This document shows positions 17,001 through 37,517 of a DNA stretch of 37,517 nucleotides, piece by piece (position 1 is the first letter of the stretch; each line of letters starts with the position of its first letter). Origin of the DNA: a virus; the IMG/VR virus record IMGVR_UViG_3300044637_001073, positions 1-37,517 of that record; one strand, 5' to 3'. The notes under the pieces are model-generated. The model was given only the letters and a program-made list of their open reading frames with translations, searched no databases and had not been told where the DNA came from. The position numbers were made by a program, and so were the translations under genes.

Positions 17001-20000
17001 TCATCAAAAGGACTGGTTGCAATAGCATATGCTGGAGCTGTTCCTCCCAGCTGAGTAAGTTGATTTTGATCTTCCATCTGGAACATCTCAATAGAGTGTC
17101 CAGCAATGAAACTTCCCCCAACTCTTGATGAATTACCGCTGAACAATCCTGTCCAATCAAGAGATAAATTACCTCTAAATCTAGTTCCATTTAGAGTTAA
17201 TTTTGCACCTCTACACTTGATTAATCCTCCTCTATATCCACCACCAAATGTGTTTGCAGCTTCACTTGCAGGAGATTGAGCACCAATAGTAACGCCAGTT
17301 AGATTTAATGTATAATCAGAACCTGGAAGTGCATTTACAGTAATTAGACTGCTTTGATAGTTTCCATTTACAGGGAATCCTGCAGATGGGAATCTTCTTC
17401 TAAGTGCTCTATATGCATATGGCCAGGATAGAAATACTTTCTTTCCTCTTGCAGTTAATGCATCATCATCTACACCTATACCAGCAGGTACTCCAGTTGT
17501 TGCTTTTTTTACACTATCTAGATATGGAGAAGCTCCACCAGAAGCACCAGTCGTAGTAGTTACAGAAAATGCAGATAATAAGTTTTGTTTTGCCACAGCT
17601 TTAAAATCATCTGCAGATAATTCTCTGTCAGAAAGACTTACAGTGTTTCCAGTAGGAGACAGAATATATCCTTTTCCATCATTTACTTGAATTGTAAATT
17701 GGCCATTAATAGTAGTTGCTACTGAACTATTGATTCTATAAGCTCTAATCGAAGTAATAGCTCCAGTAGAAGTATTAATATTTGCATATATTCCAACATT
17801 GGATGATGTGCCGCCAGTAGATACTAATACTGCACTCAATCTTCCATTATACTTTCTAGTATTTGTAAGACTTCCTTGATTAGTTAATGCAGAGCTTATT
17901 GCATCAGATATGGCATTAGTGTCATTATTAAAAGTGCCACCTGCAGCAATACTAATATTTGAGAAGTTAACTGTTGTAGCACCAAATCCTGTTCCAATTC
18001 CTCCACCAAACTGAAGTGTGGTATTATCATAGTTTGCAAACAAACTTAAAATAGTTTTATCAATACCTGCATTTTCAATAAATGCATCAATAGATGTAGC
18101 AGCATTTGGATCGGATGCATTACCTGAAGGAATTGCACCAAATTCTCTAGGAGCAAGGTCAAGAACAATATATCTAGCCTCAGTATAACCATTTCTTCTT
18201 AGTGGAAGAGATTTCTTTCTATTGAATGCAATCGCAGCATCTTCAGGAGCACCATAATTTGTAGTAGCAATTCCTGTAACTGTTTTTGATTGAATTAAGC
18301 AAGTTGGATAAATTCCGAAACTAGAAGAACCATATGGATATTCTTTAATTGTATTATCAACTTCATAATTTGGATTTCTATCAATAATTAATGAAATGTA
18401 TCCTTCCTCAGAACCTCTAATGATTCCAAAAATTTCTGGAATATCATACTTAGGAATTTCTTGACCAAATATATCATATTGAGTGAATGATACTTGAGAA
18501 TTCACCGAAAGACTTGTAGTAATATTATCAGTTAGTGTAATATTATTTCCGCTGATATTAGCAATTCTAGTTCCAATTGGAATTAAATTAGTTCCATTTG
18601 AATCTAATGCTACAATTTTATCACCAGTTAAAATACTATCAACATTGTTTAATGTGATTACTTTTTGACCAGCAGTTCCTAATCCAGTTACAGTTTTGAT
18701 GATTGCTGGTTGATATCCACCCTCATGCATAAATCCTTTTGGTAGGAATGTTCTTCTAGTTTCTAGAGCCCAGTTGTATGCAAGAGTAGTAAACTCAGCC
18801 CCATCTTCATTTAAAAATACTAATTTTTTATTTCCAGTTGTATAATTGTCTAGGTCTAAATCTTCAACTGCGTTAGTATATGCACCATTATTTCCATTAT
18901 TTCCAGCTTCAGTTCTATATACTGAAATTAGAATATGAAGTTCTTCTGTAGATAACCCTGCATTTTTTCTTCTAACACTTAATACTTTGGTAGATTTGGA
19001 TAGATTTTCTACGGTAGCTTCATCAGAACCTTTAATTACCTTTCCACCCTCTGTCAACCAATACATGGTTGTTCCTGGAATAATATATTTCTTTAATTTA
19101 TCAAATTCAGTTGCAGTGAAACTTGAAGATTTTAGTGCAACAATTAAATAACGGCAGTTTGAAATTGTGGCTGAATTTAATTCTAGATAAGTTGAATTGC
19201 TAGCAATTTTATCAATAACGTCAGTACTATTAATGTGTGGAATTAATTTTGCCTTTACTGTACTGGTAGGATCGGTAGTATTTGCAAGAACTTCAATAGC
19301 ACCATGTATTCCAGAAGTATCGATTGTATTTAATCCAATTGCGGCAAGAGTTCCAGTAGCATCAGTGGAAGATTTAATATTACTCTTGATGTAATATGCT
19401 CTTCTAATATTTCTTCTTGCAGTTTGTACTTGAGTGTCTGAACTATAAATTGAATCTGGAATTTCACTCTTAGAGATTGCCTCATTTAATCCGAGGAAAT
19501 GTACATTGTTTACATTAAATGAACCAGTTGTAGTCAATCCTCCACTAACATTGACGTTCATAGCGTCATTACCAACTCCAAATTGAGTCGAAAATTCTGG
19601 TGAACGATATAGATAGACACTATCTCCTCTCTTTATGCTATCTTCTAAATAGCCACCCATTCTTCCCGCAGAAGTTCTTGTACGCTCTTTGCCAGCAAAT
19701 ACATCACTTTCTACAACACCAGTTCCATTAATTTTTACAGAACATGGGAATGAAGTTCCATCTAATTTATAATATCCAGGTTTCATTAGCAGTTCTAATT
19801 CATCAGATGAATTAAATCCTGAATTTTCTGCCCATTGTCTTGCCTGTGAGAATGAGAATATAGGACTAAATCTCTTAACTGCTGTTCTCTCTTGAATATT
19901 TACACCCAAAGCTTTAGAGCTATATGGGTTAGGTAAATTTTTGTTGAAATACTCTTGATCTAGATTTGTAGCAACAGCAATAGATTTTTCAGCCGTCTTG

Positions 20001-23000
20001 TAAAGAATTGCATCTTCAATATTTACTTCTTCCACTACACCTTTTGTAGGATCTAGTGGTGGAATAAATGGATCTTCGGATGCCCATCTATCAGAAGAAT
20101 ATACTAGTGTACTACAACCATTGAAGAATACATTTTTAGGACTAATTCCTGGATAATTATTTACATAAGTGCTGTAAAATGTAGCAGTTGTACCATTAGC
20201 ATTTGTTGCAGCACCAATATTTTTAACTAATTTAAATGTAGCATAGCTTCCATCTGAAACATACTCAATTTTATAGTATGCAAAGGTTGCAATTTTATAA
20301 GCTTCACCCTTTGCATTTTCTCTTAGCGATACACAACCTCTAGATGGCCATTGTTCATATTCATCAGCAGTCATAGAAACTCTGATTTCTTTATATGTAG
20401 ATGTATTTAATGGGTTTATTTCTGCATAAGTAAAATTAGATTGTAGTTTCGCAGTAAGATATTTTATATCTCCTTCTGATGCATTGAATCCATATAGATC
20501 ACTTGATTCTGAGGTAGTTGTGGATTGCTGATTTCCAATAGAAGGATAATTTTTTAAAATGGAAGTATGAACTCCAGTACCACAATAACTCTTCAAATAA
20601 GTAATTAAAGGTATTCCGTTTTGATAATTTGATAGAACTGCACTATTATCTGTATAATCAATAGATTCATATTGCAATGGAATATTGATTGTTGGATTGA
20701 AATAAACTTTATTTCCAGATCCATCAATATAATAATCTTCTACACTCAATCCATCTATTCTCATCTGGATATCAATTTTTCCATATGAAGGAACTCCAGA
20801 ACTTTCCGCAAAATTAATTTTAATTGCAGAAGTATTGGACCAAGTAACATCATTAACTGTAGTATCCGTGAACTTAACTGCGTCTGCAACTTTTTTACCA
20901 CCTACAGTTTTATATGAATCAATAGCATTCTGTAGATATGGCTGAACATATACTCTATTATTATCAAGATTAACAGCTTGAGCAGAAATAAGTTGTCTCT
21001 TTACTCTCCATGCATCAAGATATTTTGGAGAAACATATAATTTATCGTTGGTATCAGTTGAGATATATCCAGTTTTATCTGGTTTTGCTGCCTTTACAAA
21101 GCCATACGCATTTGTATTTCCTTCAGGGAAGTAAGTAGAATTATTAATTTCTGCTCTATCAATATATAATCTTTGCCCAATAATTAAGTTATTGATATTT
21201 GCTTTATCACTAACTGTTAATTTGGCAATATTAAAGAAATTGGATAGTGATTTTAATGCAGTTTGATTAGAATTGGATTTGTCACCTGTTGTAGTAGTTA
21301 CATTGATAACTGCGTTTGAAATTCTGTTTTCAATATTTGCAATATCAAGATAATTAGACTCAGATGATCTACGGAGTTTGGGTACATTTAATGTTACAGT
21401 AGAAGTTCCTCCGGCTTGAATAATCTGGTTTCCAATATAAAAATCTCCAGCAGAGTTAGTTCCAGAAGAAGCAATAAATCCTCCACTGTTTTCATAACCT
21501 TGGGCAATAAACTGCTCATAGATTTTGAGAACTCTTGTTTGTAAATTTGGGAAACCAGTTGAGTAGTTACCAGAACCTAAACCAATATATTCCCATGTAT
21601 GTGAAGATGCACGAAGAATAGATGGTCTATATAAAGGAACAACAGGAGCAAAAGAAAAACTATTATCATTTAAGGTGGTTGTGTTAACCGTATATCCAGG
21701 AGATGTTACTGTAATTCTTCTATCCAATGCATCACCGTCAATTCCAAATTTATTATTTGATGTAATTGTTGGAATATCATCGGTAATTGAACCAGAAAGT
21801 AATGCAGTATTACTACCTCTACCAAATCTAATGTCAGTAGAATATACTGTGTATGAATCACTTGAAGTATAACCTAATGATGAACTACTAGTTCTAGAAT
21901 CCCAAGAAACAACTGGAGCAACGAAAACTCTACCTGAGTTATCTGGTCCACCACCAGAAGTCATCATTGAATTGCTGGATGAAATATATCGTAAATCTAA
22001 AGATTGAACCAATCTATGTACAGACTCTGCTGTTACAGAATATAGAGATGGAATATCTTTCAATGGAGTAGTTCCACCTCTATAACTCTTAAAGTTTGGA
22101 ACTGAAATATCTTTAATTCTATTTCCGCTACCAATAGATTCGATTAATACACGAGAATCTGATTGTGGGAAATTCCAAATTTTAAATGGATCATAATCTG
22201 GACCTTCTTCATTAACAGAAGGATACAAGTAATTTATATTTGTAAATAATTTAGTATCCTTATCAAAATTATTTAATTGTTCAACAAAAGTACAATCAAA
22301 ATCATTGGTTGAAGTAATTCCAGTTGGTCTCCTAGTAATTGTTGATGGGACGTTTGTGGTGGAATCTACAAATTTATTTACGTCTGCTCTTACAACAGTC
22401 AGATAATAAAGTCCATCTCTAGTATTCTTTTCCCATGCAGTTACTTCTTCAACATCCCAAACCATAAATCTATAGTCTGAATATGGAATACCATCCTCAC
22501 CATTTCCGGCACGAGTTCCCTTGATGATAAATCTTTTTTCTGGTGCCTTTGGAATTACTCCAGAGCTTAAAGATTTAGGTATTGTATATTCAACTTTCCA
22601 TAATAAATCCCCAGGAGTAGCTGTTCTGGTGTCAGAATATTTCTTGACAATAAGTGTTGATGGGAATCCAGTTTTATATTTTAAAATTTTCTTAGTTGTT
22701 TGTACTAATGAAGTTACTGCAGAACCATCACTTGCATAATTTGTTTTAAAGTCAAATGATTTTTCTTCGTTATATGCAAAAATAAAATTTTCTAAGAAAT
22801 TATTTGTTTCTGCATCTGCAAATTCTAATCTTAAGTAAATAACTCTTTTTTTGGGATCAAAAAAGTATCCTACTCGTTCTGAGTTTTTGGTAGTAGGGAC
22901 ACCATCTGTTTTTGGATTGTCTACATCTAGGATGGTATCAAATACTTTAACTTTTGCTTTGAATTTCGTAGGCTCAGTGGATTCTGCACTTTCTAGTTCT

Positions 23001-25627
23001 AGATTGATATATCTATTTGATTCTGGAGAAATCCCTGAAGCTTGATAGTAGTCTCTAAACAATGCATATTGATTTGATGTTCCAAATGTTAGGAATCTTT
23101 TTCTTTCTGTTAGACCAGTAACTTCATTTTTGCTCTCAACAATTAATTCTGGAATTGTGTCATCTGTCAATCCACTAGAAATCTCAAGATATAAGTTAAA
23201 ATATTTGGAATTTTTATAAGCAACTAATTCACTTTGTACTGCAGAAGTTAGTTCATCACTTACTGCACCACTAACATCTTTCCAAGTGCTATCTGCATCA
23301 ATATTGTAAAAACTTACACTTGACAGTGTTGGACTAATTCCTCTTGGAGGAATTACTGCAGTAATTCTTCCCTGTGATGCAGGAGGGAATGCATTAAATT
23401 GGGAACCTTTTGCACGAAGTGAAATTTGACCGAAGTTGGAGTTAGAGTTGGTGATAGACATATCACCACCAGTCTCTGCAAGGAATTGATCTGCGTAACC
23501 AACTGCGAAAACAGAAACTACCTGAATGAAGCCACCATTAGATGCTTTGATATGGAAGTGTCTGCACTCTGGCTTATATTCTGCATCTGGATCTGCAAAA
23601 ATTGGTGGATTTGTTGGAGTACTATCTGAATCAGTACTATCTCCTTCAAGGTCTTTTGGTTGAATGAATACGCTTCTATCTTTCTGTAGAGAAATACCAG
23701 TGAACTGTGCAACAACCATAGACTTGAAGCTGTTCTCTGCAACTTTACTACCATCAGTATGCATACCGCACATACCGAAGACAGAACGTAGTGAACAGTT
23801 GAAGATGTATGGTGAGCAAGAATTAACTGTATCAATTGTGGTATTCTTGCTACCATCACCAACAATAGTAAATTCTTCAGGTCTTACTTGGGATGGGTCG
23901 TCTGAAGTTCTACCCTGCCAAGCATCAATTTTTTTATAGTATTGATCTAGTTCACCATCAGTTGTTCTTTGATCTGCATAAGTGAATGCAACAACTTTAT
24001 GGTGAGAATATTTTGCGTTATTGGTAGCGTTAAATGTAGGAATGCCGTTGCTATCAAAGGTAGCTGAATTATAAATTGGGTTTAAGTCAGATGCTACTGC
24101 ATCCTTAAATGTCATCTGCCAGAAATAACATCCGCCAGTAACTTTAAAAATAGAAGTCTGCTTAAATACTCCCTGAGTTTTTCTAAGTTTTATATTTGTG
24201 GTGGTTCCATTAGAAAGGGTAACGTTAACTGCCTCTGTGGTATAATCATCTGGATTATTTAAAATTCCAGTCGCAATAGCGCCAAGAGTAGCAACAGCAG
24301 TAACTACACTAGAACAATCTCCATTAGCACTATATCCATTCCCGACAGAAAAAGTAGTTGGAGATGGAATTGATCCACCGCTATAATATGTGGGAGCAGC
24401 ATTAGCAGTACTACCGTCATTGTAAGATTTTACAATGCTTCTCATAATTTGAACTGCATGATTAAATGCAGCTACGGTTGCAGCAATTTCCTGACTTACA
24501 TCAGAATCATTGCTATTCATAAATTGCGTTCTATATCCATTACCATCAATATAATATTCTGCATTATTGAAGGTATTTTCGTTTCCACCTTGTCTTAAGT
24601 CTGAGCAAATTGCATCAATAAAGTAACCAATATCACGAACACATAATAATTTTTGTGCTTGAGACAATGCATTATATGCAGCAGATTGAGGATTTTGAAC
24701 ACTTTCTAGATATAATTTTGTTTGTTCTTGAATATAACCACGATTCTTCTCGATCATATTTGCACCATCATACATTACATGTGATAGTGCATATCCATCC
24801 CCAGCTAGGCTTCCCTCAGTTGAGAATGGTGCAGGTACATATTTTGGTCTAATGACAGTTTTTCTGAGGTCATAACCAACAATAGAAGTACCTCTAGGTA
24901 CAATAACTCCACCATTTCTTGGGTTGAATCTAAATGGTTCGGCATTAATTGTGGTGGCAGTTCCAGCTACCAGTGGGTTTGTTGTAATATCATACCCTGG
25001 TCTATTGTCAATCTCATACTGACCAGGAAGCACCATGATAGTGAATGCTTCAAACTTGTCATTACTTAGTTTTACTGTTCCTGTTCCAGTACCTTTTGCA
25101 TTAGCAATAAATGAAACACCTACAGTATTTGAAGATGCACCAATAGATACAAAATTAGTATTATTTCCTACACTAGTGATTGTATATGCTTTACCAACTT
25201 CTAGGGCAGTTACACTTATTGGTGCTGGATTTGCTTTATAACTTCTCTTTGCTGCCTCTAGTAATGCTCTCTCGATGGTCTTGAATGGTCTATTTAAATT
25301 TCCACCATCATTAGCTTCTGCATCGGTGGCATTTAAATCCGCCTGGTTTACATATAAAGTAATATTTTCTGCACCTTCAAAGTTTGGATTAGTTCCACCT
25401 AGAACAGTGTTGTTTCCGGTGATAATAGTTCCATCTGCCTTGAAAGTTAATCTAGGCTGTCCTGCCGTAGAAATTGCAAGTTCATTATCAGCTGGCTGGT
25501 AAATACCAGTTCCAGTATCATCAGAATTATTGAATCTAATTGCTGGAGCCGCAGGTGTATTGTTACTATCGAATACAATCTTTACGCCTTCCGCAATACC
25601 ACCAGAAGTAATTCTAGTTAGAGCCAT
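14087..25627 (-). CDS. Giant virion structural protein, 3846 aa, multidomain with pectate-lyase-like beta-helix
   Basis: The N-terminus (IRFNNSDDTGTGIYQPADNE) matches the fibre module of the 215-aa protein. From about residue 95 there is the start of a beta-helix (LYVNQADLNATDAEANDGGN, LNRPFKTIERALLEAA), interrupted near residues 310-390 by a Cys-containing helical segment (KLLCVRDIGYFIDAICSDLR). Further helix-like segments occur near residues 1930 (FSFSQARQWAENSGF...MKPGYYKLDG) and 2480-2850 (RYIVLDLAPREFGA, GGLIKCRGAKLTLNGTRFRG). No signal peptide, transmembrane run or clear catalytic site is seen. A TATAAATA motif and an AGG site 7 nt from the ATG lie upstream. Proteins of this size in cyanophages are virion components; a tail or baseplate-associated fibre or depolymerase-like spike is likely, but exact place is unknown. 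Confidence 0.85.
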   Translation of the reverse strand: MALTRITSGGIAEGVKIVFDSNNTPAAPAIRFNNSDDTGTGIYQPADNELAISTAGQPRLTFKADGTIITGNNTVLGGTNPNFEGAENITLYVNQADLNATDAEANDGGNLNRPFKTIERALLEAAKRSYKANPAPISVTALEVGKAYTITSVGNNTNFVSIGASSNTVGVSFIANAKGTGTGTVKLSNDKFEAFTIMVLPGQYEIDNRPGYDITTNPLVAGTATTINAEPFRFNPRNGGVIVPRGTSIVGYDLRKTVIRPKYVPAPFSTEGSLAGDGYALSHVMYDGANMIEKNRGYIQEQTKLYLESVQNPQSAAYNALSQAQKLLCVRDIGYFIDAICSDLRQGGNENTFNNAEYYIDGNGYRTQFMNSNDSDVSQEIAATVAAFNHAVQIMRSIVKSYNDGSTANAAPTYYSGGSIPSPTTFSVGNGYSANGDCSSVVTAVATLGAIATGILNNPDDYTTEAVNVTLSNGTTTNIKLRKTQGVFKQTSIFKVTGGCYFWQMTFKDAVASDLNPIYNSATFDSNGIPTFNATNNAKYSHHKVVAFTYADQRTTDGELDQYYKKIDAWQGRTSDDPSQVRPEEFTIVGDGSKNTTIDTVNSCSPYIFNCSLRSVFGMCGMHTDGSKVAENSFKSMVVAQFTGISLQKDRSVFIQPKDLEGDSTDSDSTPTNPPIFADPDAEYKPECRHFHIKASNGGFIQVVSVFAVGYADQFLAETGGDMSITNSNSNFGQISLRAKGSQFNAFPPASQGRITAVIPPRGISPTLSSVSFYNIDADSTWKDVSGAVSDELTSAVQSELVAYKNSKYFNLYLEISSGLTDDTIPELIVESKNEVTGLTERKRFLTFGTSNQYALFRDYYQASGISPESNRYINLELESAESTEPTKFKAKVKVFDTILDVDNPKTDGVPTTKNSERVGYFFDPKKRVIYLRLEFADAETNNFLENFIFAYNEEKSFDFKTNYASDGSAVTSLVQTTKKILKYKTGFPSTLIVKKYSDTRTATPGDLLWKVEYTIPKSLSSGVIPKAPEKRFIIKGTRAGNGEDGIPYSDYRFMVWDVEEVTAWEKNTRDGLYYLTVVRADVNKFVDSTTNVPSTITRRPTGITSTNDFDCTFVEQLNNFDKDTKLFTNINYLYPSVNEEGPDYDPFKIWNFPQSDSRVLIESIGSGNRIKDISVPNFKSYRGGTTPLKDIPSLYSVTAESVHRLVQSLDLRYISSSNSMMTSGGGPDNSGRVFVAPVVSWDSRTSSSSLGYTSSDSYTVYSTDIRFGRGSNTALLSGSITDDIPTITSNNKFGIDGDALDRRITVTSPGYTVNTTTLNDNSFSFAPVVPLYRPSILRASSHTWEYIGLGSGNYSTGFPNLQTRVLKIYEQFIAQGYENSGGFIASSGTNSAGDFYIGNQIIQAGGTSTVTLNVPKLRRSSESNYLDIANIENRISNAVINVTTTTGDKSNSNQTALKSLSNFFNIAKLTVSDKANINNLIIGQRLYIDRAEINNSTYFPEGNTNAYGFVKAAKPDKTGYISTDTNDKLYVSPKYLDAWRVKRQLISAQAVNLDNNRVYVQPYLQNAIDSYKTVGGKKVADAVKFTDTTVNDVTWSNTSAIKINFAESSGVPSYGKIDIQMRIDGLSVEDYYIDGSGNKVYFNPTINIPLQYESIDYTDNSAVLSNYQNGIPLITYLKSYCGTGVHTSILKNYPSIGNQQSTTTSESSDLYGFNASEGDIKYLTAKLQSNFTYAEINPLNTSTYKEIRVSMTADEYEQWPSRGCVSLRENAKGEAYKIATFAYYKIEYVSDGSYATFKLVKNIGAATNANGTTATFYSTYVNNYPGISPKNVFFNGCSTLVYSSDRWASEDPFIPPLDPTKGVVEEVNIEDAILYKTAEKSIAVATNLDQEYFNKNLPNPYSSKALGVNIQERTAVKRFSPIFSFSQARQWAENSGFNSSDELELLMKPGYYKLDGTSFPCSVKINGTGVVESDVFAGKERTRTSAGRMGGYLEDSIKRGDSVYLYRSPEFSTQFGVGNDAMNVNVSGGLTTTGSFNVNNVHFLGLNEAISKSEIPDSIYSSDTQVQTARRNIRRAYYIKSNIKSSTDATGTLAAIGLNTIDTSGIHGAIEVLANTTDPTSTVKAKLIPHINSTDVIDKIASNSTYLELNSATISNCRYLIVALKSSSFTATEFDKLKKYIIPGTTMYWLTEGGKVIKGSDEATVENLSKSTKVLSVRRKNAGLSTEELHILISVYRTEAGNNGNNGAYTNAVEDLDLDNYTTGNKKLVFLNEDGAEFTTLAYNWALETRRTFLPKGFMHEGGYQPAIIKTVTGLGTAGQKVITLNNVDSILTGDKIVALDSNGTNLIPIGTRIANISGNNITLTDNITTSLSVNSQVSFTQYDIFGQEIPKYDIPEIFGIIRGSEEGYISLIIDRNPNYEVDNTIKEYPYGSSSFGIYPTCLIQSKTVTGIATTNYGAPEDAAIAFNRKKSLPLRRNGYTEARYIVLDLAPREFGAIPSGNASDPNAATSIDAFIENAGIDKTILSLFANYDNTTLQFGGGIGTGFGATTVNFSNISIAAGGTFNNDTNAISDAISSALTNQGSLTNTRKYNGRLSAVLVSTGGTSSNVGIYANINTSTGAITSIRAYRINSSVATTINGQFTIQVNDGKGYILSPTGNTVSLSDRELSADDFKAVAKQNLLSAFSVTTTTGASGGASPYLDSVKKATTGVPAGIGVDDDALTARGKKVFLSWPYAYRALRRRFPSAGFPVNGNYQSSLITVNALPGSDYTLNLTGVTIGAQSPASEAANTFGGGYRGGLIKCRGAKLTLNGTRFRGNLSLDWTGLFSGNSSRVGGSFIAGHSIEMFQMEDQNQLTQLGGTAPAYAIATSPFDEEFKILSEYNPTSNIYLEPSKDPYGELSDGDARTFPLTTLQAIRRFNKSKQSVTPWTGASSIASGALLTQVALNERYQTPYKIWYDAPNGTPTGSYIPTANGNASAVLLRWNDTSSTVTTGLSVSTSIASYAQLETKTLSFFYPADESGEDIIKNLFVGKFATKFVKYDNLETTYATATKVFTYGDTFNIENGAVTKASGGNSGKYKFAKVAYSGSFAVLAQAANTRIDLNVNYLSSIRYNYVSTSTGRYQKTIVGNNSRLILAQDDVNIKYSEPANLAISNIGATFAVANATRSTVYSLKNETRLSSPSTWTAGKVVLSTDSNGILTSLDIISFGSGHVKNDVLAIYNGNTKISGNFTFTVRNNYSNEDILEMFENGEFKVVLPKNCFILNSIQNPNSLINLKSELLRAKTIFKPGGYILYNGIYYKIATSNSTNNSPYIGVYRYINEDNDSDVRADIIVMLEDSEYVITYPSNTRFDVFDYDNVLDYWPTSGRITIGNRETCDFEKAGQSSDPKGYEIRLTRSMTKYWPHYIHDWEGLDPLNVSDSTVAVDTLIPTVITIADPVDVTCYGIKRFNSSGSIGDNIKDVDYGTTYVTPTGIITDKVARISINSTNDSIGLNADFEKLSIGQTITIPYRDISKSDTVSNQANATNWNNVKLIVGDPQNLPGTALSTNREGDRRISGSIAYYNSGSKQIYYKHTFNIHGSNTNDTSIYQYVSPLTSAILSSGRDSSVEEFNTAGFRRWGYLGVKSHANADAGQAAIQISSAYIQSMMRISSYATFTATFATINNTTDPLERIMTVTTPTEGALFRGQPLYTSGNHSNGTYSGLFGYVVGMAGDVFLSYDASGNSIYTDEDSLNLSGYGGAGTYRILLVDGASVPSNGSTIYGQRTSMDWLYYAPNNCCWQRQVLYKTVDSSNVTTVYFNNNLTDPDLLDNSILSVPASSDVVFYYYGYYDNSFVVTLDKQLTK

Positions 25628-29034: not shown

Positions 29035-30341
29035 TAAAATGTTACTTTGCTAGGGACATTTTGGGTTTTAATTTCATTCCCACCGAATGAATCTCTTGTT
29101 AATGTAGCAATAGTTCTAAGTTCAGTTCTATTTAGGATAGTATGCTTAACAGAGTGTACCATATACCTCCCACTAATTCTAGTATCTTCTTGAATTCTAC
29201 CATCTTTACCTTTTCTGGGAGATGGGATTGAAACATTGATTACATATCCTGGCTGTAATTTTAGGTCTCCAGGTACTGCAATTTCTAATTTATTATATTC
29301 TAAAAAGTAATATCTATAAATTGACTTCTCATAATTTTTATTGACTTCATCTACATGATTCAATTTTTCTATTTCCTCATTAGATAAATCTTTCCAACCA
29401 AATGTAGATGTTGTAGTTGGCCTGTATATTAATCTGGATGGTTTTTCAAGTAATTTTGTATTTTGGAATGGAGTCATCTTATTTAAATGACTCATATCTT
29501 TCCAGTATGTGGATGCATTTGTATTCCAATTTTGAAAATTTCTATTATTAATATCTACGTATAAAGCATTGTGTGAAAATGCACCATTGCGAAGATCATC
29601 AAGAATGTCAAATGCTTTTGGTGAAGCATAATTTAATATTCTATAGTTATTCAATTCTGTTTTGGATACATCAGTGTTGCCTTGAATAAATGTATATTTT
29701 GTTTGGTTATTTGGATATGCAGGAGCATCAAATAATACATCTAATGATTTGAAGTTATAGCCTTCCACAGTTTCATAGAATAAATATCCTACCGATGATT
29801 TATTTTTAACAGGTACACTTCTTCTGGACATCCATATGGCAGTATCAAATATTCTCCAATTGGGAACATACATGTTGAATGGATATAAAGTGCTATCAAC
29901 ATTTTCAAATTTTTTGTTGGAGATTAGTTTTATTTTTTCCTTTAAAAATATCTCTGCTTTTTTTCCATCAACTCTTTCACGAATTCTAGTATATTCATTG
30001 TCTAAAGCTTCTTTACTTACTGCATGAATTACATAGATCTGATCCTTTTCCTGCATCACTCGACCATCAATCTTGTGAATGTAATAATTGAAAGTATATT
30101 TTGCAGATAAAGTTGAGATTGAAAATTCAATTCGTTCTTGTCCAATCAGTGGTATGGTTTCTATTAAATTTTCTCCGATGTCTTTAATTACTATTTGACA
30201 ATATAGACTTGATGATATAACACTTTGATATAATGTAATCTCTTGCACTAACTCTTTTATGTCAAGTTTTTTATCATTGACATTTAATGGATATAGGAAT
30301 ACAGATTTTAGAGAAAAATCTCCAGTAAATTGTTGATTCAT
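29034..30341 (-). CDS. Baseplate hub protein, gp27-like, 435 aa
   Basis: The protein opens MNQQFTGDFSLKSVFLYPLN and continues QEITLYQSVISSSLYCQIVI, IGQERIEFSIST, FNYYIHKIDGRVMQEKDQIY and VHAVSKEALDNEYTRIRERV. This matches the tube-like N-terminal domains of the T4 gp27/VgrG N-terminal family, which form the trimeric hub ring holding gp5. The C-terminal part (KLEIAVPGDLKLQPGYVINV, ISGRYMVHSVKHTI) is the second tube-like domain. The start shares a base with the preceding stop (TAATG). Order gp27 then gp5 fits their known physical contact. The assignment is strong by motif and context, without a search. Confidence 0.85.
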   Translation of the reverse strand: MNQQFTGDFSLKSVFLYPLNVNDKKLDIKELVQEITLYQSVISSSLYCQIVIKDIGENLIETIPLIGQERIEFSISTLSAKYTFNYYIHKIDGRVMQEKDQIYVIHAVSKEALDNEYTRIRERVDGKKAEIFLKEKIKLISNKKFENVDSTLYPFNMYVPNWRIFDTAIWMSRRSVPVKNKSSVGYLFYETVEGYNFKSLDVLFDAPAYPNNQTKYTFIQGNTDVSKTELNNYRILNYASPKAFDILDDLRNGAFSHNALYVDINNRNFQNWNTNASTYWKDMSHLNKMTPFQNTKLLEKPSRLIYRPTTTSTFGWKDLSNEEIEKLNHVDEVNKNYEKSIYRYYFLEYNKLEIAVPGDLKLQPGYVINVSIPSPRKGKDGRIQEDTRISGRYMVHSVKHTILNRTELRTIATLTRDSFGGNEIKTQNVPSKVTF

Positions 30342-33295
30342 TAGAGTCTTGTTTTGAGATTAAATGCTAGTGAGCTATCTATTGAAGAATAAGATCCTGC
30401 AGAATAGTCTGGAAATTCTACTGGAGTTATCAGGTTGGTGTTTGTTATTGTATTGGTTCCACTCATCATAATATATGTATCTGAATATGCAGTAACATCT
30501 TTAGCTGCTTGAAGATATTTCATACTGTCTTTTTCCATTTGTGCTCCATTAAATTTAATTGGAGCATTTAACATTTGATATAATTTTCCAAGACTTTCTG
30601 ATACTTTAATAGGATCAAATACTGGTTGTTGATCTTGAGTAGATTCTTCAGCAGGAGCCACTCTATCAGCTTCAACTGTTGGTGTTTGAGCTGCTGGAGC
30701 TGTTGCTTGGCCAGGAGTTCCACCTTTTCTCAATAATGAAAACAATCCTTGAGTTAATGGATCAACCTTACCATTTAAAGTTTCTGCCAAATCTTTTTTT
30801 GTAGTATGTTGTTCTAGGTGTAAATGTGCTCCACCAGATCTTCCTGCACCAGGAGTTTTTGGCACACCTCCACTCATTGCAATTACAGAATTAGGATTAA
30901 AATTTTGACCCTCTTTTACCCAAGAAGGAATAGAACTTAAATGTGCAAGTCTAGCAATCTTTCCATCAGTTAATTTAACATCCATATATTGACCATAGCC
31001 ACCATTAGCTTCTTTTTCTACACTAGAAGTTCTACCAATTTTCATAAACTGTCCACCCAGCGTAAATGATAATGGAGTCCCAGACCCAAATGCAATATCT
31101 ATTCCTTCATGTGCATGTTTTCGGAATGACTCTTTCTTGCCAAATTTACTAGTAATATCTCCTCTAGATACCAATCCACCAGTTTGCATCTTAGAATATT
31201 TTGATACATTAGAATTAAATCTTGATATAAATTGTTGACTTGTAGTATTTTGTTGACTACCTCCTGGCAGTGAAGGCCAAGTGCCCCTCAGTTTTGCAGA
31301 CGCTGATAAAGGATCTACCTGAGCATCCTTGACTAATTGTGATTCTCCTCCAGGATAAACACTTGCCATTAACATTCTGGCAATTTTGGTTTGATTTTCT
31401 TGGTTGAATTTATCTTTATTTGGATCTAATCCAGCATCTCTAGCTCTACTAAGAATAAATTCAGGCATTTGTTGCCACTTACCCATGGCTCCAGATCCAC
31501 CCAAAGAATATCCTTTTTGCATTGCAGCTCGCCTAGCGTCTGCAATTGTCATATTACTAAGTCCATCAACTGTAGTGGATGGGTTTACTGAATCCCAACT
31601 ACCTTCACCGCCAGCGATAGCTTCTAACATAGCCTTTACTTCTGGAGGTGCATCTCCCGGCAACATTCCCCCAGAAGTAGGAGGATTTTTATCATCTCTT
31701 CCTCGTCTTCCAGATGTTTTCTTTTTAAAATCTAGATTGATAATATTGTTTAAAATATCTGCAAGGATTTCACGAATACTATTGCCAGAATTATATCTTG
31801 CTTTCTTGGATTCTTCTGATGATTCTTTCTTTGCAATGATATTCAGAGTCTTACTTGTGCCAAGTATCTTTTCAAGTTCTGTATTGGAGGATTGTTTCTT
31901 TTGATCAATATTAAACACACCTGTTGTTCCACCAATATCAGATGTAAATACATAATTACTTGACCCAAATTCTCTTCGATAAGGTGATAATAAACTAGAT
32001 GCATATGGACGAATTGTTAATCCAATAGGTCCTAGAGAAGATATGACAGCATCAATTCCACCAATCATTGAGGATGCAACTACTCCCATTGGAGCATTTA
32101 ATATAGTTCCATCGTAAATTCTAGGCAGAGGAATAACTGCCTCTGGTCCTGCTTCACCAATAAGTGCTCTAGTTGGTTTTGTTACAATACCACCCACTGC
32201 AAGAGCAGGTTCTTTTGGTGCAGAAAATCCCTTGAAGAATCCATATAATTTATCTCCAACCCAATCACCAAGTAATCCACCAACAATAGCACCAAACGTA
32301 GCACCAGCAGCAGTGCCCGCAAATGGAATGATACTTCCCAATACTCCCATGACAATACCACCAAGCCATGCACCAATACTAGATCCAATCAGCTTTACTG
32401 CAGCTTTATCTAATGGATCCCCAAAAATTAAGTTAAGTCCAAATCCAATAACAGGACCAATCAATGGAATTCTACTTAGTGGTTTTGCTGCGGTTTTTAT
32501 TGTATTTTTTACAAATTGTTTAGCTGAAGCAAATCCAATTTTAGATGCTACTTTTGTTAAAAATTTTAATGCATTCTTACCAAATACTTTAAGTATAACT
32601 CGTTTAATTCCAGCAGTTAATCCTTTGGAGTATGCAACATAGAGATTAGGATTTAATAATTTAAATATTCCTTCAATAGCTTCTTTGAATTTACCAGATC
32701 CTATATTTGTAAATACCTTACCAATATTTTTACCATTCTTTAGAATCCATACAATATCTTTTAATATCTGACCAGGAGATAATAATCTTCTGATGATAAA
32801 AAATCCACCAATAGCTTTGAATACACCAAAGAATCTTTCTAGGAAGCTACCACCAAATAAAATACTATGCAATCCACCAAGAACACCTTCAACACCAACT
32901 CCAGCAATAAAGTCAATCATCTTGAATATATTTTTCATTGCCTTAGCAATTTCACCAAGAGACTTTACATTCTCTGGCTGAGACATCCATTGAAGAATTT
33001 TATACCCCGCAAAAAATTTAAACAAGTCATATAATTTCACTGACTGTTCTTTTATCTGACCTCGTACAGCACCCGAAACTGTATTAGACTTTTTTAATTC
33101 TTGATTTCTTTCTCTTTCTGATATTGCAGATCTATCAATCGAATCTTTTTGAATTTTAAAAAACTTTTTCTCCAAGTCAAAATTTTTCTTTTTCTGTAAT
33201 ACTAAATTTTTGGCAACACCATGCACCGTCTTCAACTCTTTAAGACGAGTATTACCTATAATGGAAGCTGGTCTAACGGGTGTTAAATTTTCCAT
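30341..33295 (-). CDS. Tape-measure/hub protein with GH104-like transglycosylase and M23 peptidase, 984 aa
   Basis: N-terminal helical part with FFAGYKILQWMSQPENVKSL (about residue 95), a long hydrophobic region with Gly-rich segments (residues 120-360) and the tape-measure motif GGIVTKPTRALIGEAGPEAV near 375. Residues of about 550-690 resemble lambda R-like (GH104) transglycosylases: AIAGGEGSWD (candidate catalytic Glu), GGSGAMGKWQQMPEF and LRGTWPSLPGGSQQ. Residues of about 730-830 are an M23/LytM endopeptidase with all zinc ligands (HAHEGIDIAF, RLAHLS, GAHLHLEQ). The C-terminal ESLGKLYQMLNAP is shared with the 895-aa paralogue. Probably delivered with the tail tip to open peptidoglycan at infection. 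Confidence 0.85.
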   Translation of the reverse strand: MENLTPVRPASIIGNTRLKELKTVHGVAKNLVLQKKKNFDLEKKFFKIQKDSIDRSAISERERNQELKKSNTVSGAVRGQIKEQSVKLYDLFKFFAGYKILQWMSQPENVKSLGEIAKAMKNIFKMIDFIAGVGVEGVLGGLHSILFGGSFLERFFGVFKAIGGFFIIRRLLSPGQILKDIVWILKNGKNIGKVFTNIGSGKFKEAIEGIFKLLNPNLYVAYSKGLTAGIKRVILKVFGKNALKFLTKVASKIGFASAKQFVKNTIKTAAKPLSRIPLIGPVIGFGLNLIFGDPLDKAAVKLIGSSIGAWLGGIVMGVLGSIIPFAGTAAGATFGAIVGGLLGDWVGDKLYGFFKGFSAPKEPALAVGGIVTKPTRALIGEAGPEAVIPLPRIYDGTILNAPMGVVASSMIGGIDAVISSLGPIGLTIRPYASSLLSPYRREFGSSNYVFTSDIGGTTGVFNIDQKKQSSNTELEKILGTSKTLNIIAKKESSEESKKARYNSGNSIREILADILNNIINLDFKKKTSGRRGRDDKNPPTSGGMLPGDAPPEVKAMLEAIAGGEGSWDSVNPSTTVDGLSNMTIADARRAAMQKGYSLGGSGAMGKWQQMPEFILSRARDAGLDPNKDKFNQENQTKIARMLMASVYPGGESQLVKDAQVDPLSASAKLRGTWPSLPGGSQQNTTSQQFISRFNSNVSKYSKMQTGGLVSRGDITSKFGKKESFRKHAHEGIDIAFGSGTPLSFTLGGQFMKIGRTSSVEKEANGGYGQYMDVKLTDGKIARLAHLSSIPSWVKEGQNFNPNSVIAMSGGVPKTPGAGRSGGAHLHLEQHTTKKDLAETLNGKVDPLTQGLFSLLRKGGTPGQATAPAAQTPTVEADRVAPAEESTQDQQPVFDPIKVSESLGKLYQMLNAPIKFNGAQMEKDSMKYLQAAKDVTAYSDTYIMMSGTNTITNTNLITPVEFPDYSAGSYSSIDSSLAFNLKTRL

Positions 33296-33296
33296 T

Positions 33297-35984
33297 TTAT
33301 GGTGCTATCGGATAATTAATTAATGGATTTGGTGGAGTTGTATTTCCAAGTGCCGCAGTCATTGGCTGTGAAGTTGTTTGAGTAATAGTTTTATTTGGTT
33401 GTCCCAATGTAATAACATTGCCACCAGTTTTAGATTGGTTTCTAGATTGACTTTGAAGTTGTAAATTTTCTTTTTGAACTCTCTGTAAATTTCCAGATGA
33501 TTGTGAAACAGTCTGGGTTATTTTTGGTGGTGTTGCTGGCTTTGGTGTTGAGGTTAATTCTTGATTGGCTGAAGGAGCATTTAACATCTTGAATAATTTT
33601 CCAAGACTTTCTGCAGCAGATGCTGCCATTTTTGCAGTAAATTCAGTTGGCGAACCTGCAGTAGTAGAAGATCCAGGTTCTGCCCCAGATTCGGATTTCC
33701 CAGCAATATCAACATTACCTTCTCCTGGTTTTATGGTTCCTCCAAATGGTGCATCTTTGCCAAATAATTCAAGTGGATTTAATCTACTTCTTCTACTACT
33801 TTTATCTTGACCAACATCTCCAGGATTTGTTGAAACTTCCCAATGTAAATGTGGTCCTGTTCCTGCATTACCACTAATTCCTATCTTCTGACCTTTTCTA
33901 AGTTTATCTCCTTTTTTTACATATATTTGACTCATATGTGCAAACATATGCCCTCTACCATCAGATCCTTTCCAAACTATCCACTTAGGTCCATACCCAG
34001 CTGCAGGAGATGGTGGAGATGTTTCTAATACTTCTCCATCAATATAAGATTTCAATGGCTCATAATTTGCACCAATATCCGCCCCCATATGCATACCAGA
34101 ACTAACTCCAGGAATATTTCTATTGATAAATGGGATACTAGTCACAACACGACCACCACCTTGAAATCTAGCAAATTTATTATAATTAATATGATCTAAA
34201 ACTCCAGGGCCACCCATTCCCTGAACTGCATTTCTGTTAAGCACATATTCCCCTGGCTCTAGTAATGCAGGAATCTTATCTCCGGCTCCTTGACCAGGAA
34301 CCGCACCAGAGGTAGAAGATCGGTCAAATATTGGGGACATGGCAGGGGCAGCAGATGGAGCCGCTGGAGAGCCCGCTGGGGCTGCTGGAGCTGGGGTAGC
34401 TGGTGGAGCTGGAGCTGGGGTAGCTGGTGGTCCAGGTGGAGTGGTAGCTGGGGCAGTTTTCTGTTGCTTGCTAATTAAAGCACCCAATATATTTCCAAGC
34501 AATCCTTTAACAGTTGTATCTCTACTAGCATTGAAATCTTCACCTTTCTGTTGATTTATATTGATATCTTTTTTTCCAAATAATTCTGCAACATCTCCCA
34601 TTCCAGATGTTACCATCTCACCAACACCACCAACAAAGCCAGTCATTCCAGAAACTAATCCAGGTGGCAATCCAAATCCAGATGCAATATTAGAAATTAA
34701 AGGTTTTATAAATTGGCCAATTCCAGGGATCTTTCCTACAGTAGATGAAATTAATGCTAATATTCCAGCTCCGATAATCTTAAAAGGTAACGTCAATAAT
34801 GTCATGAATTTAGGAATTACCTTATTGGTAGCTGCCTTAAATCCATCAATTCCAAATGAACCCAATTTATCCAATGGAAGGATTGCTTCTGGACCAGCTT
34901 CACCGATGATAGCTTCAGTTGGCTTTGTTACGATTCCACCCTTTGCTAACTTTGGAAGTTCTTCCTGAGATTTACTTCCTGTAAATAATGACTTGACAGA
35001 TCCACCGATTTTTGCACCGATGTTAGTAGCAATATCTATTCCAGGGAATAGAGTTTTTAAAATATTTTTACCAATATTTGATAGAGATTCTTTTGCCTTT
35101 TCCCCTAAATCTCCTTGCCCAGTTTTATCAGATTCTGCAGATGTTTCTGTTGGAGATTCTACTGGTTTTTTAGTATCTACTGATTGCTCAGCTTGACCTT
35201 GAAGTTCTTTTTGCCCACCAAGCAATCCATTAGTTAAAACGGATTCCAGAAAATTTGGTAATAGATTAGTTAAAAATTTTACTGTCAGTGAAATTGCATT
35301 TGGAATGCTTGCAAAAACTGATGTTACATCCTCTATAGTTTTAAGTAGCCATTCAACCCCACCACCAATCCATCTAAAACTAAAGAACTCTGCAACCTTA
35401 CCGACAAAATCAAATACACCATTGATTACCTTAGAAGTAACCGTAATGGTTTTCATTAATAAATCAACACCAAATTCAGTGACTGCACTAATGAATTTAA
35501 ATATCTTTGTGAATAAAGTTACAAAGTCCTGAATTTTTTTTGAGTTTGCTGGGTTGGATGCCCACTGAAGAACTTTATATCCAACAAAAAATTTCAAGAG
35601 ATTCTTAAAGAATTCTCCAATCATAGAAATGTCAGACTTTGCCTTTTCTACAATAGAATTTGCATTTGATTTTTTTCCACCTCTTCCTCTACCTTCTTCT
35701 TGTAATCTTTCTCTTTCTCTAGATTTTCTTCTTTGTTCTTCCTTTGCAAAGTTTAAAATTCTATCTCCAAGAAAACTATAATACCTCTTCTCAATGGCAA
35801 GTAAAGTTCCAAGTGTTTTTCTAATCTGACCTAATTCTTCAATCTCTTTTTTGGCAATAATATTTCCAGACAATCTAATAGGTCTCCCCCCAGTAATAGC
35901 TGATGGATTTACTGGGGAAAGTCTTCTAGATCTGAGAGACTCAGCAAATGATTGCATTGATGTCTGGGCTTGTCTTTCTGCCAT
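33297..35984 (-). CDS. Tape-measure/hub protein with M23 peptidase, 895 aa
   Basis: Paralogue of the 984-aa neighbour: shared FFVGYKVLQWASNPANSKKI near residue 133, GGIVTKPTEAIIGEAGPEAI near 358, and ESLGKLFKMLNAP near the C-terminus. The N-terminus has a charged coiled-coil segment (FAKEEQRRKSRERERLQEE). A Pro/Ala-rich linker spans about 510-550, followed by a second tape-measure motif (KIPALLEPGEYVLNRNAVQG). Residues of about 625-720 are M23/LytM with intact ligands (SGMHMGADIGA, GHMFAHMS, GPHLHWEV). No GH104-like domain is seen. It starts 4 bp after the stop of the gp51-like frame, so its translation may be coupled to the frameshift product. Confidence 0.85.
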   Translation of the reverse strand: MAERQAQTSMQSFAESLRSRRLSPVNPSAITGGRPIRLSGNIIAKKEIEELGQIRKTLGTLLAIEKRYYSFLGDRILNFAKEEQRRKSRERERLQEEGRGRGGKKSNANSIVEKAKSDISMIGEFFKNLLKFFVGYKVLQWASNPANSKKIQDFVTLFTKIFKFISAVTEFGVDLLMKTITVTSKVINGVFDFVGKVAEFFSFRWIGGGVEWLLKTIEDVTSVFASIPNAISLTVKFLTNLLPNFLESVLTNGLLGGQKELQGQAEQSVDTKKPVESPTETSAESDKTGQGDLGEKAKESLSNIGKNILKTLFPGIDIATNIGAKIGGSVKSLFTGSKSQEELPKLAKGGIVTKPTEAIIGEAGPEAILPLDKLGSFGIDGFKAATNKVIPKFMTLLTLPFKIIGAGILALISSTVGKIPGIGQFIKPLISNIASGFGLPPGLVSGMTGFVGGVGEMVTSGMGDVAELFGKKDININQQKGEDFNASRDTTVKGLLGNILGALISKQQKTAPATTPPGPPATPAPAPPATPAPAAPAGSPAAPSAAPAMSPIFDRSSTSGAVPGQGAGDKIPALLEPGEYVLNRNAVQGMGGPGVLDHINYNKFARFQGGGRVVTSIPFINRNIPGVSSGMHMGADIGANYEPLKSYIDGEVLETSPPSPAAGYGPKWIVWKGSDGRGHMFAHMSQIYVKKGDKLRKGQKIGISGNAGTGPHLHWEVSTNPGDVGQDKSSRRSRLNPLELFGKDAPFGGTIKPGEGNVDIAGKSESGAEPGSSTTAGSPTEFTAKMAASAAESLGKLFKMLNAPSANQELTSTPKPATPPKITQTVSQSSGNLQRVQKENLQLQSQSRNQSKTGGNVITLGQPNKTITQTTSQPMTAALGNTTPPNPLINYPIAP
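34384..34430. repeat. GC-rich 24-bp tandem repeat encoding Pro/Ala linker
   Basis: A 23-bp identical block occurs at 34384-34406 and 34408-34430, a 24-bp period. It encodes repeats of the P-P-A-T-P-A-P-A type in the 895-aa protein. The surrounding ~130 bp is much richer in G and C than the rest of the window. Confidence 0.85.
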
Positions 35985-35988
35985 TTAC

Positions 35989-36183
35989 TTACAACGATGT
36001 TGTTGTTTTATTTTTGAGATTCTCTTCTTCAATATAATCTACCAACATTTGTACATATATTTCTCTTTCCCAAGGAAGCATATTTTCAATTTCCGAAAGA
36101 GCCCATTTATGATGTTGAAGTAATATAAAATTAATTCTGAAGAAATTTTCTAGCGACTCATGTGCTAGGGCTATGCGAAAAAA
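35989..36183 (-). CDS. gp51-like C-terminal extension of gp26, read by -1 frameshift
   Basis: In the -1 frame relative to gp26, reading from the slippery site stays open for 62 codons past the gp26 frame: RIALAHESLENFFRINFILL, QHHKWALSEIENMLPWEREI, YVQMLVDYIEEENLKN, ending TTTSL and TAA. The WALSEIENMLPWEREIYVQM part is typical of tail-assembly chaperone C-termini and T4 gp51-type proteins. There is no ATG, GTG or TTG start before the internal ATG of MLPWERE, which would give only 30 residues and lose the conserved helix. It therefore looks like part of a 297-aa fusion with gp26. It fills the otherwise empty 186-bp gap. Confidence 0.82.
   Translation of the reverse strand, partial: FFRIALAHESLENFFRINFILLQHHKWALSEIENMLPWEREIYVQMLVDYIEEENLKNKTTTSL
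36150..36168 (-). promoter_or_regulatory. Hairpin downstream of the frameshift site
   Basis: On the minus strand CTAGC and GCTAG pair around a 9-nt loop. The 5-bp stem begins 8 nt after the slippery heptamer, in the usual 5-9 nt window for a stimulatory structure. The stem is short, so its effect is uncertain. Confidence 0.5.
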
Positions 36184-36881
36184 GACGCAAGACCCTCCAA
36201 TACAACATCACTCTCAACATTAGTTACTGGGTTAGTAACTTTAACTGTATGAGATAGTTTTGGCATAGTCTCAAAGAATTTTTGAATTAACAGAAACTGA
36301 GCCGTATCCAAACTATCTAGAAAATCATTAATTTCCTTTTTGCTGAAACTCTTTGTTTCATATACATCTTCACCTTCTACAACCTGTTCAATACAAGATG
36401 CTGCAATTTCAAATACATCTTCAGTTTTTGCATTGGCAGTGAAGTTTGTTTTAACAAACATCTCCATACTAGGATATTTCATTACAACAGAAATAGTATC
36501 ATTCAATGAAATAATTCTAGAGTGGTCTTCAAATTTTTGAACTTTAATATCTTCAACATTGAGTTCAAGAGGAACTGTAGTTTCTCCATCATCTGGACAT
36601 GTAATATTTAAATCAATCTGTTCTCCAACAGACTTTGCACGAATATTGAGAAACAAATACTCAATATCAAATACAGCAAGATCATCAACTTTAATTTTAG
36701 ATACAATGCAATTCTTTAGAATAGTTTTTACTGCATTGATCATTTGATTTTCATCTTCAGATTCCATAGCCATGAGAAGAACTTTCTCTTCTTTTACTAG
36801 GAATGGTCTGTATTTAATTAATTGATCAGTTGATGGTAAACGCAATTCATACGTCGGAGTTACAATTTTTGGTAAAGGCAT
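36171..36881 (-). CDS. Baseplate hub subunit / tail assembly protein, gp26-like, 236 aa
   Basis: The protein starts MPLPKIVTPTYELRLPSTDQ and continues KYRPFLVKEEKVLLMAMESE, VDDLAVFDIEYLFLNIRAKS and ITCPDDGETTVPLELN. These are the hallmarks of the T4 baseplate family (T4 gp26 type). The C-terminal half (KKEINDFLDSLDTAQFLLIQ, KFFETMPKLSHTVKV) is helical and ends ASFFA at a TTTTTTC run. Order gp26, gp51-like, hub genes, gp27 matches T4. It starts 30 bp after the tube-like gene, with no clear ribosome binding site. By analogy with lambda G, the short form may be the abundant product and the frameshift fusion the minor one. Confidence 0.88.
   Translation of the reverse strand: MPLPKIVTPTYELRLPSTDQLIKYRPFLVKEEKVLLMAMESEDENQMINAVKTILKNCIVSKIKVDDLAVFDIEYLFLNIRAKSVGEQIDLNITCPDDGETTVPLELNVEDIKVQKFEDHSRIISLNDTISVVMKYPSMEMFVKTNFTANAKTEDVFEIAASCIEQVVEGEDVYETKSFSKKEINDFLDSLDTAQFLLIQKFFETMPKLSHTVKVTNPVTNVESDVVLEGLASFFA
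36177..36183 (-). promoter_or_regulatory. Slippery heptamer T TTT TTC for -1 frameshifting
   Basis: Reading on the minus strand in the gp26 frame the codons are TCT TTT TTC GCA TAG, so the heptamer T TTT TTC is correctly phased for simultaneous P- and A-site slippage, four codons before the stop. Both tRNAs (Phe, Phe) can re-pair with TTT after slipping. An 8-nt spacer and a hairpin follow. Confidence 0.8.
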
Positions 36882-36911: not shown

Positions 36912-37517
36912 TTAGGTAATGTCGGTCCAAGATTTTGTTATTCTGGTGGAGTTTTCTCCAGTCTGAGATGATGGTACTGCAAGTTCATATTCAAACGTAA
37001 CCTGAACTTTTACTAATTGAGATGATCCACTTGATAATGGTATTGCGGATATAGTTGTTGGGAATGCATTTCTCAATCTAACTGAGTATGTTGCAAATGG
37101 TTTACCAAATCCAGAAATATAATTAAGTCCAGAGCCTGGAATAATTTCATCAACATTATAGAAGTTAGATTGATAGTCCGATTGAGTAGTTTTTAGTCTA
37201 GTATTTTTTCTACTACTTCTATGCCTCTCAAGTTTAATTATAATTATATCACAACAATAGTCATCTCTATATCTAGTTCTACCTAAATTAACACTTTGAT
37301 TCATATTAATGTTTGTGTTTATCGTATTTGTGCCTGACAATGAAACACCAGTATAAATGTAATTACCCCAGGCATCAAAAATTCTTCTAATTTCAGAATC
37401 TGCATCAGAGATAAATGAAACGGTAATTTCATTGTTTACAATTCCATATGCATATTTCATCGTAGGAGTATTGGTAATTCTATAATCTCCTGTAGAAATA
37501 GAATACCCAGGGATGGT
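36912..37517 (-). CDS. Tail-tube-like protein (gp19/gp54 type), N-terminus outside window
   Basis: The frame is open to the window edge: 19 codons before the first ATG at 37460 still read as protein (TIPGYSISTGDYRITNTPT), so the visible 201 residues are a partial C-terminal part. The segments NNEITVSFISDADSEIRRIF followed by DAWGNYI resemble the 'DWTVTVMNDEAHDAR' region of T4 gp19, and NAFPTTISAIPLSSGSSQLV followed by KVQVTFEYELAV resembles its C-terminal strands. It is therefore either a tail tube protein or the tube initiator gp54; the location directly before gp26 and the hub genes favours gp54, but the two cannot be told apart here. A Cys pair and basic stretch (DDYCCDIIIIKLERHRSSRK) form an insertion not seen in gp19. 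Confidence 0.65.
   Translation of the reverse strand, partial: TIPGYSISTGDYRITNTPTMKYAYGIVNNEITVSFISDADSEIRRIFDAWGNYIYTGVSLSGTNTINTNINMNQSVNLGRTRYRDDYCCDIIIIKLERHRSSRKNTRLKTTQSDYQSNFYNVDEIIPGSGLNYISGFGKPFATYSVRLRNAFPTTISAIPLSSGSSQLVKVQVTFEYELAVPSSQTGENSTRITKSWTDIT

Follow-up and report, generated by a model that had tools for sequence, protein, structure and literature searches.

A tail assembly chaperone locus with very probable −1 frameshifting in a cyanophage-type T4-like phage

The window, that is, the whole stretch of 37,517 nucleotides of viral DNA analysed here, carries close to its end a gene of the gp26 type that is placed between a tail tube type gene and a tape-measure-like gene, as in lambda G/GT. 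The features of this locus, including a −1 frame that overlaps the end of gp26, are as follows.

36912 to 37517, minus strand: tail-tube-fold protein, placed like gp54 and truncated where the window ends (PF23849 phage tail tube; PHROG 45 tail tube)
36171 to 36881, minus strand: gp26, open reading frame of 236 aa, family PF12322, predicted short chaperone (TAC-N type)
36194 to 36198, minus strand: Shine-Dalgarno-like (SD-like) GGAGG, perfect match, candidate stimulator of the frameshift, 10 nt before the heptamer
36177 to 36183, minus strand: slippery heptamer T TTT TTC, read from the sequence and present as in-phase T TTT TTN in 121/124 relatives
36171 to 36173, minus strand: gp26 stop TAG, read from the sequence, one codon past the heptamer
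35989 to 36177, minus strand: −1 frame tail of 62 aa plus stop TAA (35991 to 35989), PHROG 634, homologous to the gp51 C-terminus
36150 to 36168, minus strand: CTAGC/GCTAG stem-loop, 8 nt past the heptamer, possible minor stimulator
33297 to 35984, minus strand: candidate tape-measure-like protein of 895 aa with an M23 peptidase domain
Predicted peptide spanning the gp26/tail junction: ...LASFFR / IALAHESLENFFR

The gp26 frame matches the Pfam family T4_baseplate (PF12322, E 3.8e-74) and PHROG 150, and its AlphaFold model has a pLDDT of 86. An earlier note on this DNA had read the end of this frame as TCT TTT TTC GCA TAG with a correctly phased heptamer, followed by a −1 frame that is open for 62 codons down to 35989 and has no usable start; the sequence agrees on each of these points, with the heptamer at 36183–36177 and no ATG, GTG or TTG in the −1 frame before tail codon 32. 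The tail matches PHROG 634 (E 2.8e-25), and its joining to gp26 residues 1–235 gives a fusion of 297 aa. Among 10,684 codons in the large open reading frames of the window, T TTT TTC in the slippery phase occurs once, at the end of gp26. The same strand also holds a single very large open reading frame of 3846 aa at 14087–25627.

For comparison, 186 usable loci were gathered from IMG/VR and GenBank, and 124 representatives were taken as relatives whose gp26 DNA differs by more than 10%; these span Pelagibacter phage HTVC008M, Caulobacter phage Cr30, Stenotrophomonas phage Mendera, a Rhizobium phage, Aeromonas phage Aeh1, and Vibrio phages. Counts over the 124 ignore shared ancestry, but the phages are very divergent. 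Scans that started from the A2 alignment or from the D493 gp26 returned no usable relatives. An in-phase T TTT TTN is present in 121 of the 124 relatives (the last base being C in 108, T in 12, and G in one), the −1 tail is open in all 124, and among the 121 that bear the heptamer the gp26 stop falls 0–9 nt past it, with one exception. The base before TTT TTN is always T, even though its codon specifies S, D, N, A, G, T or H; similarly, Phe-Phe is written TTT TTC in 108/121 cases at the heptamer, compared with 4/110 elsewhere in gp26. The slippery heptamer is conserved jointly with the place of the gp26 stop and the −1 frame; the earlier note had proposed to look for this pattern in the gp26 3' ends of relatives, and it supports, at the level of sequence comparison, both the recoding and the predicted pair of products, gp26 of 236 aa and a fusion of 297 aa. 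Because the slippery site is conserved in 121 of 124 divergent relatives, chance is ruled out. A tail that is merely a decayed or accidental open frame without a product could point to the 27 of 5,000 dinucleotide shuffles (0.5%) in which the frame stays open, but this reading is refuted by conservation, since the tail protein is conserved across very divergent phages and is homologous to the essential T4 gp51, and its probability is practically nil.

The slippery site is absent from three relatives, Vibrio D493 (L088), Pseudomonas Cygsa01 (L100), and Vibrio Kuja (L098), which form one clade and have a single-copy gp26. D493 and Cygsa01 carry a TAATG stop-start overlap, and in these two phages reinitiation seems to have replaced frameshifting; Kuja has neither the slippery site nor the overlap (CCTTTTTCAATAA). 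Compared with the near-identical L086 and L192 (Mendera), L193 has five T instead of six at the slippery site, either through a sequencing error or through a real loss.

Two kinds of element flank the heptamer. The upstream GGAGG at 36198–36194 was overlooked in the earlier note, which had drawn attention to the downstream hairpin. An SD-like word about 10 nt upstream of the heptamer occurs in 104/121 relatives against a background of 5.9%, the Glu codon that ends 12 nt before the heptamer is GAG in 78/97 cases against 29% elsewhere, and anti-SD pairing reaches −6.4 kcal/mol upstream of the heptamer against −1.4 kcal/mol in the background. The hairpin does stand 8 nt past the heptamer as described (arms 36168–36164 and 36154–36150; −6.8 kcal/mol); however, in the window itself it is no stronger than in shuffles (z about −0.5 to −0.9) and is confined to the near clade, where 14 distinct sequences show 3/70 bad cells in the stem and no compensatory changes, and it is lost in L012, L018, L020, and L032. 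Its role as a universal stimulator is rejected on these grounds. Across relatives, mean downstream folding has a z of −1.75 to −1.86 (−1.75 against synonymous shuffles), and several clades, such as that of P-SSM2, have strong stems that begin 5–8 nt past the heptamer; these stems vary by clade, with little covariation and few double changes, and the stem of the window's clade is small. The SD-like sequence, rather than the hairpin, is the candidate for the conserved stimulator. The E. coli dnaX cassette, in which a −1 shift on A AAA AAG shortens the product, is alike in layout only, with its upstream SD-like element, heptamer, and downstream stem; among the relatives the SD-like part of this layout is strongly present, and the stem appears in several clades and is weak in the window.

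A signal made of one repeated base also invites transcriptional slippage, by which mRNAs with an extra base would give the long form through normal translation, and runs of 7–8 T are found in 12/121 relatives. However, 109/121 have a run of only 6 T, and this explanation is disfavoured because the runs reported to cause transcriptional slippage in bacteria are about 9 long (PMC5009743). Moreover, all T runs keep one codon phase, and the SD-like element and the downstream stems, placed at distances typical of ribosomal frameshifting, would be left unexplained; transcriptional slippage is hence regarded as highly improbable.

The other reading to be weighed is that the tail is a small gene of its own, the cyanophage "gp51", read either from a start codon of its own or by ribosomes that reinitiate past the gp26 stop. 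Separate gp51 genes are annotated by GenBank in many relatives, in 71/124 an ATG stands among the first codons of the tail, TGATG or TAATG overlaps occur in 16 relatives, and D493 and Cygsa01 have TAATG without a slippery site. Against this, an early ATG, GTG or TTG is absent in 37/124, including the window, where the first ATG of the tail is codon 32 and lies within the conserved core; the slippery site is retained even in relatives with a tail ATG; and T4 gp51 has the tail fused to a gp26 domain. A normal start with a ribosome binding site, the arrangement that the earlier note had set against its own reading, did not appear: none of 69 early tail ATGs has an SD 5–14 nt upstream. An independent start as the main route is rejected, as the start is often absent and the early ATGs lack an SD, and the separate-gene reading is very unlikely, although a free tail could arise by reinitiation at TGATG or TAATG in some phages. 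Intact −1 tails are left unannotated in the GenBank records L089 (Aeh1), L090, L092, L093, and L094.

Frameshifting at the end of gp26, which these comparisons favour, also suits the surrounding genes. In Aeh1, gp54 stands at the position of the window's tail-tube-fold protein, and the 895-aa tape-measure-like gene begins four bases past the tail stop; in HTVC008M and Cr30, a tape measure is annotated at the position of this gene, there after one further small open reading frame. Two adjacent large minus-strand genes of the window, 30341–33295 and 33297–35984, both have the motif GGIVTKPT..IGEAGPEA and M23-type matches, and both are candidate tape measures. A Foldseek search of the PDB with gp26 listed the HK97 chaperone 2ob9 (E 0.6–1.8, probability 0.25–0.54), and no significant match was obtained among solved lambda-type chaperones. 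Tail assembly chaperones made via a −1 frameshift, lambda gpG/gpGT and others, were reportedly described by Xu, Hendrix and Duda in 2004, and such chaperones, gpG/gpGT included, are reviewed in PMC5009743. The window resembles gpG/gpGT in its order of a tube-type protein, a predicted short chaperone with a −1 extension, and a tape-measure-like gene, and in having two predicted products with a stop soon after the slippery site; the family PF12322, the heptamer T TTT TTC, and the SD-like upstream element set it apart from lambda-type systems. The suggestion in the earlier note that gp26 and gp51 are the T4-type counterpart of G/GT agrees with the synteny, the conserved slippery site, and the −1 frame. 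According to available excerpts of PMC12846349, phages of Vandenendeviridae and Andersonviridae have a chaperone gene that likewise ends in a poly-T −1 site and precedes the tape measure; they differ in belonging to other phage families and in the motif GTTTTT, alongside which these excerpts mention no SD-like element.

In T4, both gp26 (8.8e-64) and gp51 (3.9e-52) match PF12322, and gp51 consists of a gp26 paralogue with about 48 further residues in frame. The window tail aligns with the C-terminus of T-even gp51 (hhalign probability 95.7, E 8.7e-9), shares PHROG 634 with gp51, and matches only its C-terminal ~45–50 aa, the last fifth of T4 gp51. The 297-aa fusion is considered the counterpart of the whole of gp51 because T4 gp51 is itself a gp26 paralogue with the same tail; the earlier note's fusion of gp26 with a gp51-like tail is supported in this form, and not as a joining of T4 gp26 to T4 gp51. 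T4 gp26 would correspond to the short product of the window and gp51 to the long one, the difference being that T4 has two genes, no slippery site, and an in-frame tail, whereas the window has one gene and a frameshift.

Gene copy number follows the same division. A single PF12322 gene is found in 31/42 whole records, in each of which the inspected gene has an overlapping −1 tail, and all 11 T-even-type records have at least two PF12322 hits (three in 2/11, where a record end or a break divides one gene). An in-phase T6 was seen in 0/13 T-even gp26 genes examined. In the tree, T-even gp26 and gp51 lie together on one side of a branch (95/91), apart from the frameshift genes, a topology that fits a single duplication. 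Klebsiella phage CP-p-KP-21068 (L204) has, at 1501–2792 and directly after the tail tube gene, a gp51-like gene (246 aa, tail in frame) followed by a gp26-like gene (184 aa); this long-then-short tandem arrangement is as expected of tandem duplication, and the pair is likely an intermediate of the T-even duplication.

Taken at the level of sequence, the homology is likewise supported, and the window locus very likely encodes the tail assembly chaperones of a T4-like phage of cyanophage (Kyanoviridae) type, with short and long forms produced by −1 frameshifting. Most ribosomes would complete gp26 and yield the 236-aa short chaperone, whereas a minority would slip by −1 on T TTT TTC, bypass the TAG, and add 62 residues to give the 297-aa long chaperone, with probable help from the GGAGG that lies 10 nt before the heptamer and from downstream stems that differ by clade. 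If the roles are like those of lambda gpG/gpGT, the tape measure protein encoded immediately downstream would be coated by the short form, and the long form would use its tail to bring in tube subunits and so link tape measure and tube; slippage in vivo and its rate, the chaperone role, and the binding partners are predictions of this kind. In T-even phages the same two proteins would come from the paralogous genes 26 (short) and 51 (long).

Frameshifted tail chaperones are already known as a kind, of which the window locus is a well-supported further case. A 2016 review named T4 as an exception among them (PMC5009743). PMC10885494 and PMC12846349 credit Vladimirov, Gautam and Davidson (2022) with identifying the tail assembly chaperones of T4-like phages; the citing passage of PMC10885494 attributes to them the finding that some T4-like phages have a short gene and a long fusion gene, and that of PMC12846349 the finding of poly-T frameshift signals in T4-like chaperone genes. 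Judged by these passages, the T4-like assignment had in outline been published already, contrary to the earlier note, which knew of no certain description for T4-like cyanophages. Sullivan et al. 2010 (PMC3037559) described cyanophage and vibriophage "gp51" without the first ~200 residues and an Aeh1 gp51 that was seemingly missing. A limited literature search, itself weak evidence, gave no passage that dealt with cyanophages, mentioned the SD-like element, or explained the "truncated" cyanophage gp51 or the "missing" Aeh1 gp51.

The frameshift would explain both cases, as the N-terminal part of the "truncated" cyanophage and vibriophage gp51 would come from gp26 through frameshifting, and the "missing" tail of Aeh1 is present but unannotated; it would also correct how hundreds of marine phage genomes are annotated. 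One chaperone family has probably reached a pair of short and long forms in several ways, namely through a widespread dnaX-like −1 cassette that combines an SD-like element with T TTT TTC and a variable stem, through one T-even duplication that replaced the cassette (tandem in CP-p-KP-21068, divergent in T4), and in a small Vibrio/Pseudomonas clade that lost the slippery site, two of whose three members have a TAATG stop-start overlap. The family would thereby offer a natural experiment, with gene duplication taking the place of recoding, together with a testable −1 cassette for cyanobacterial ribosomes.
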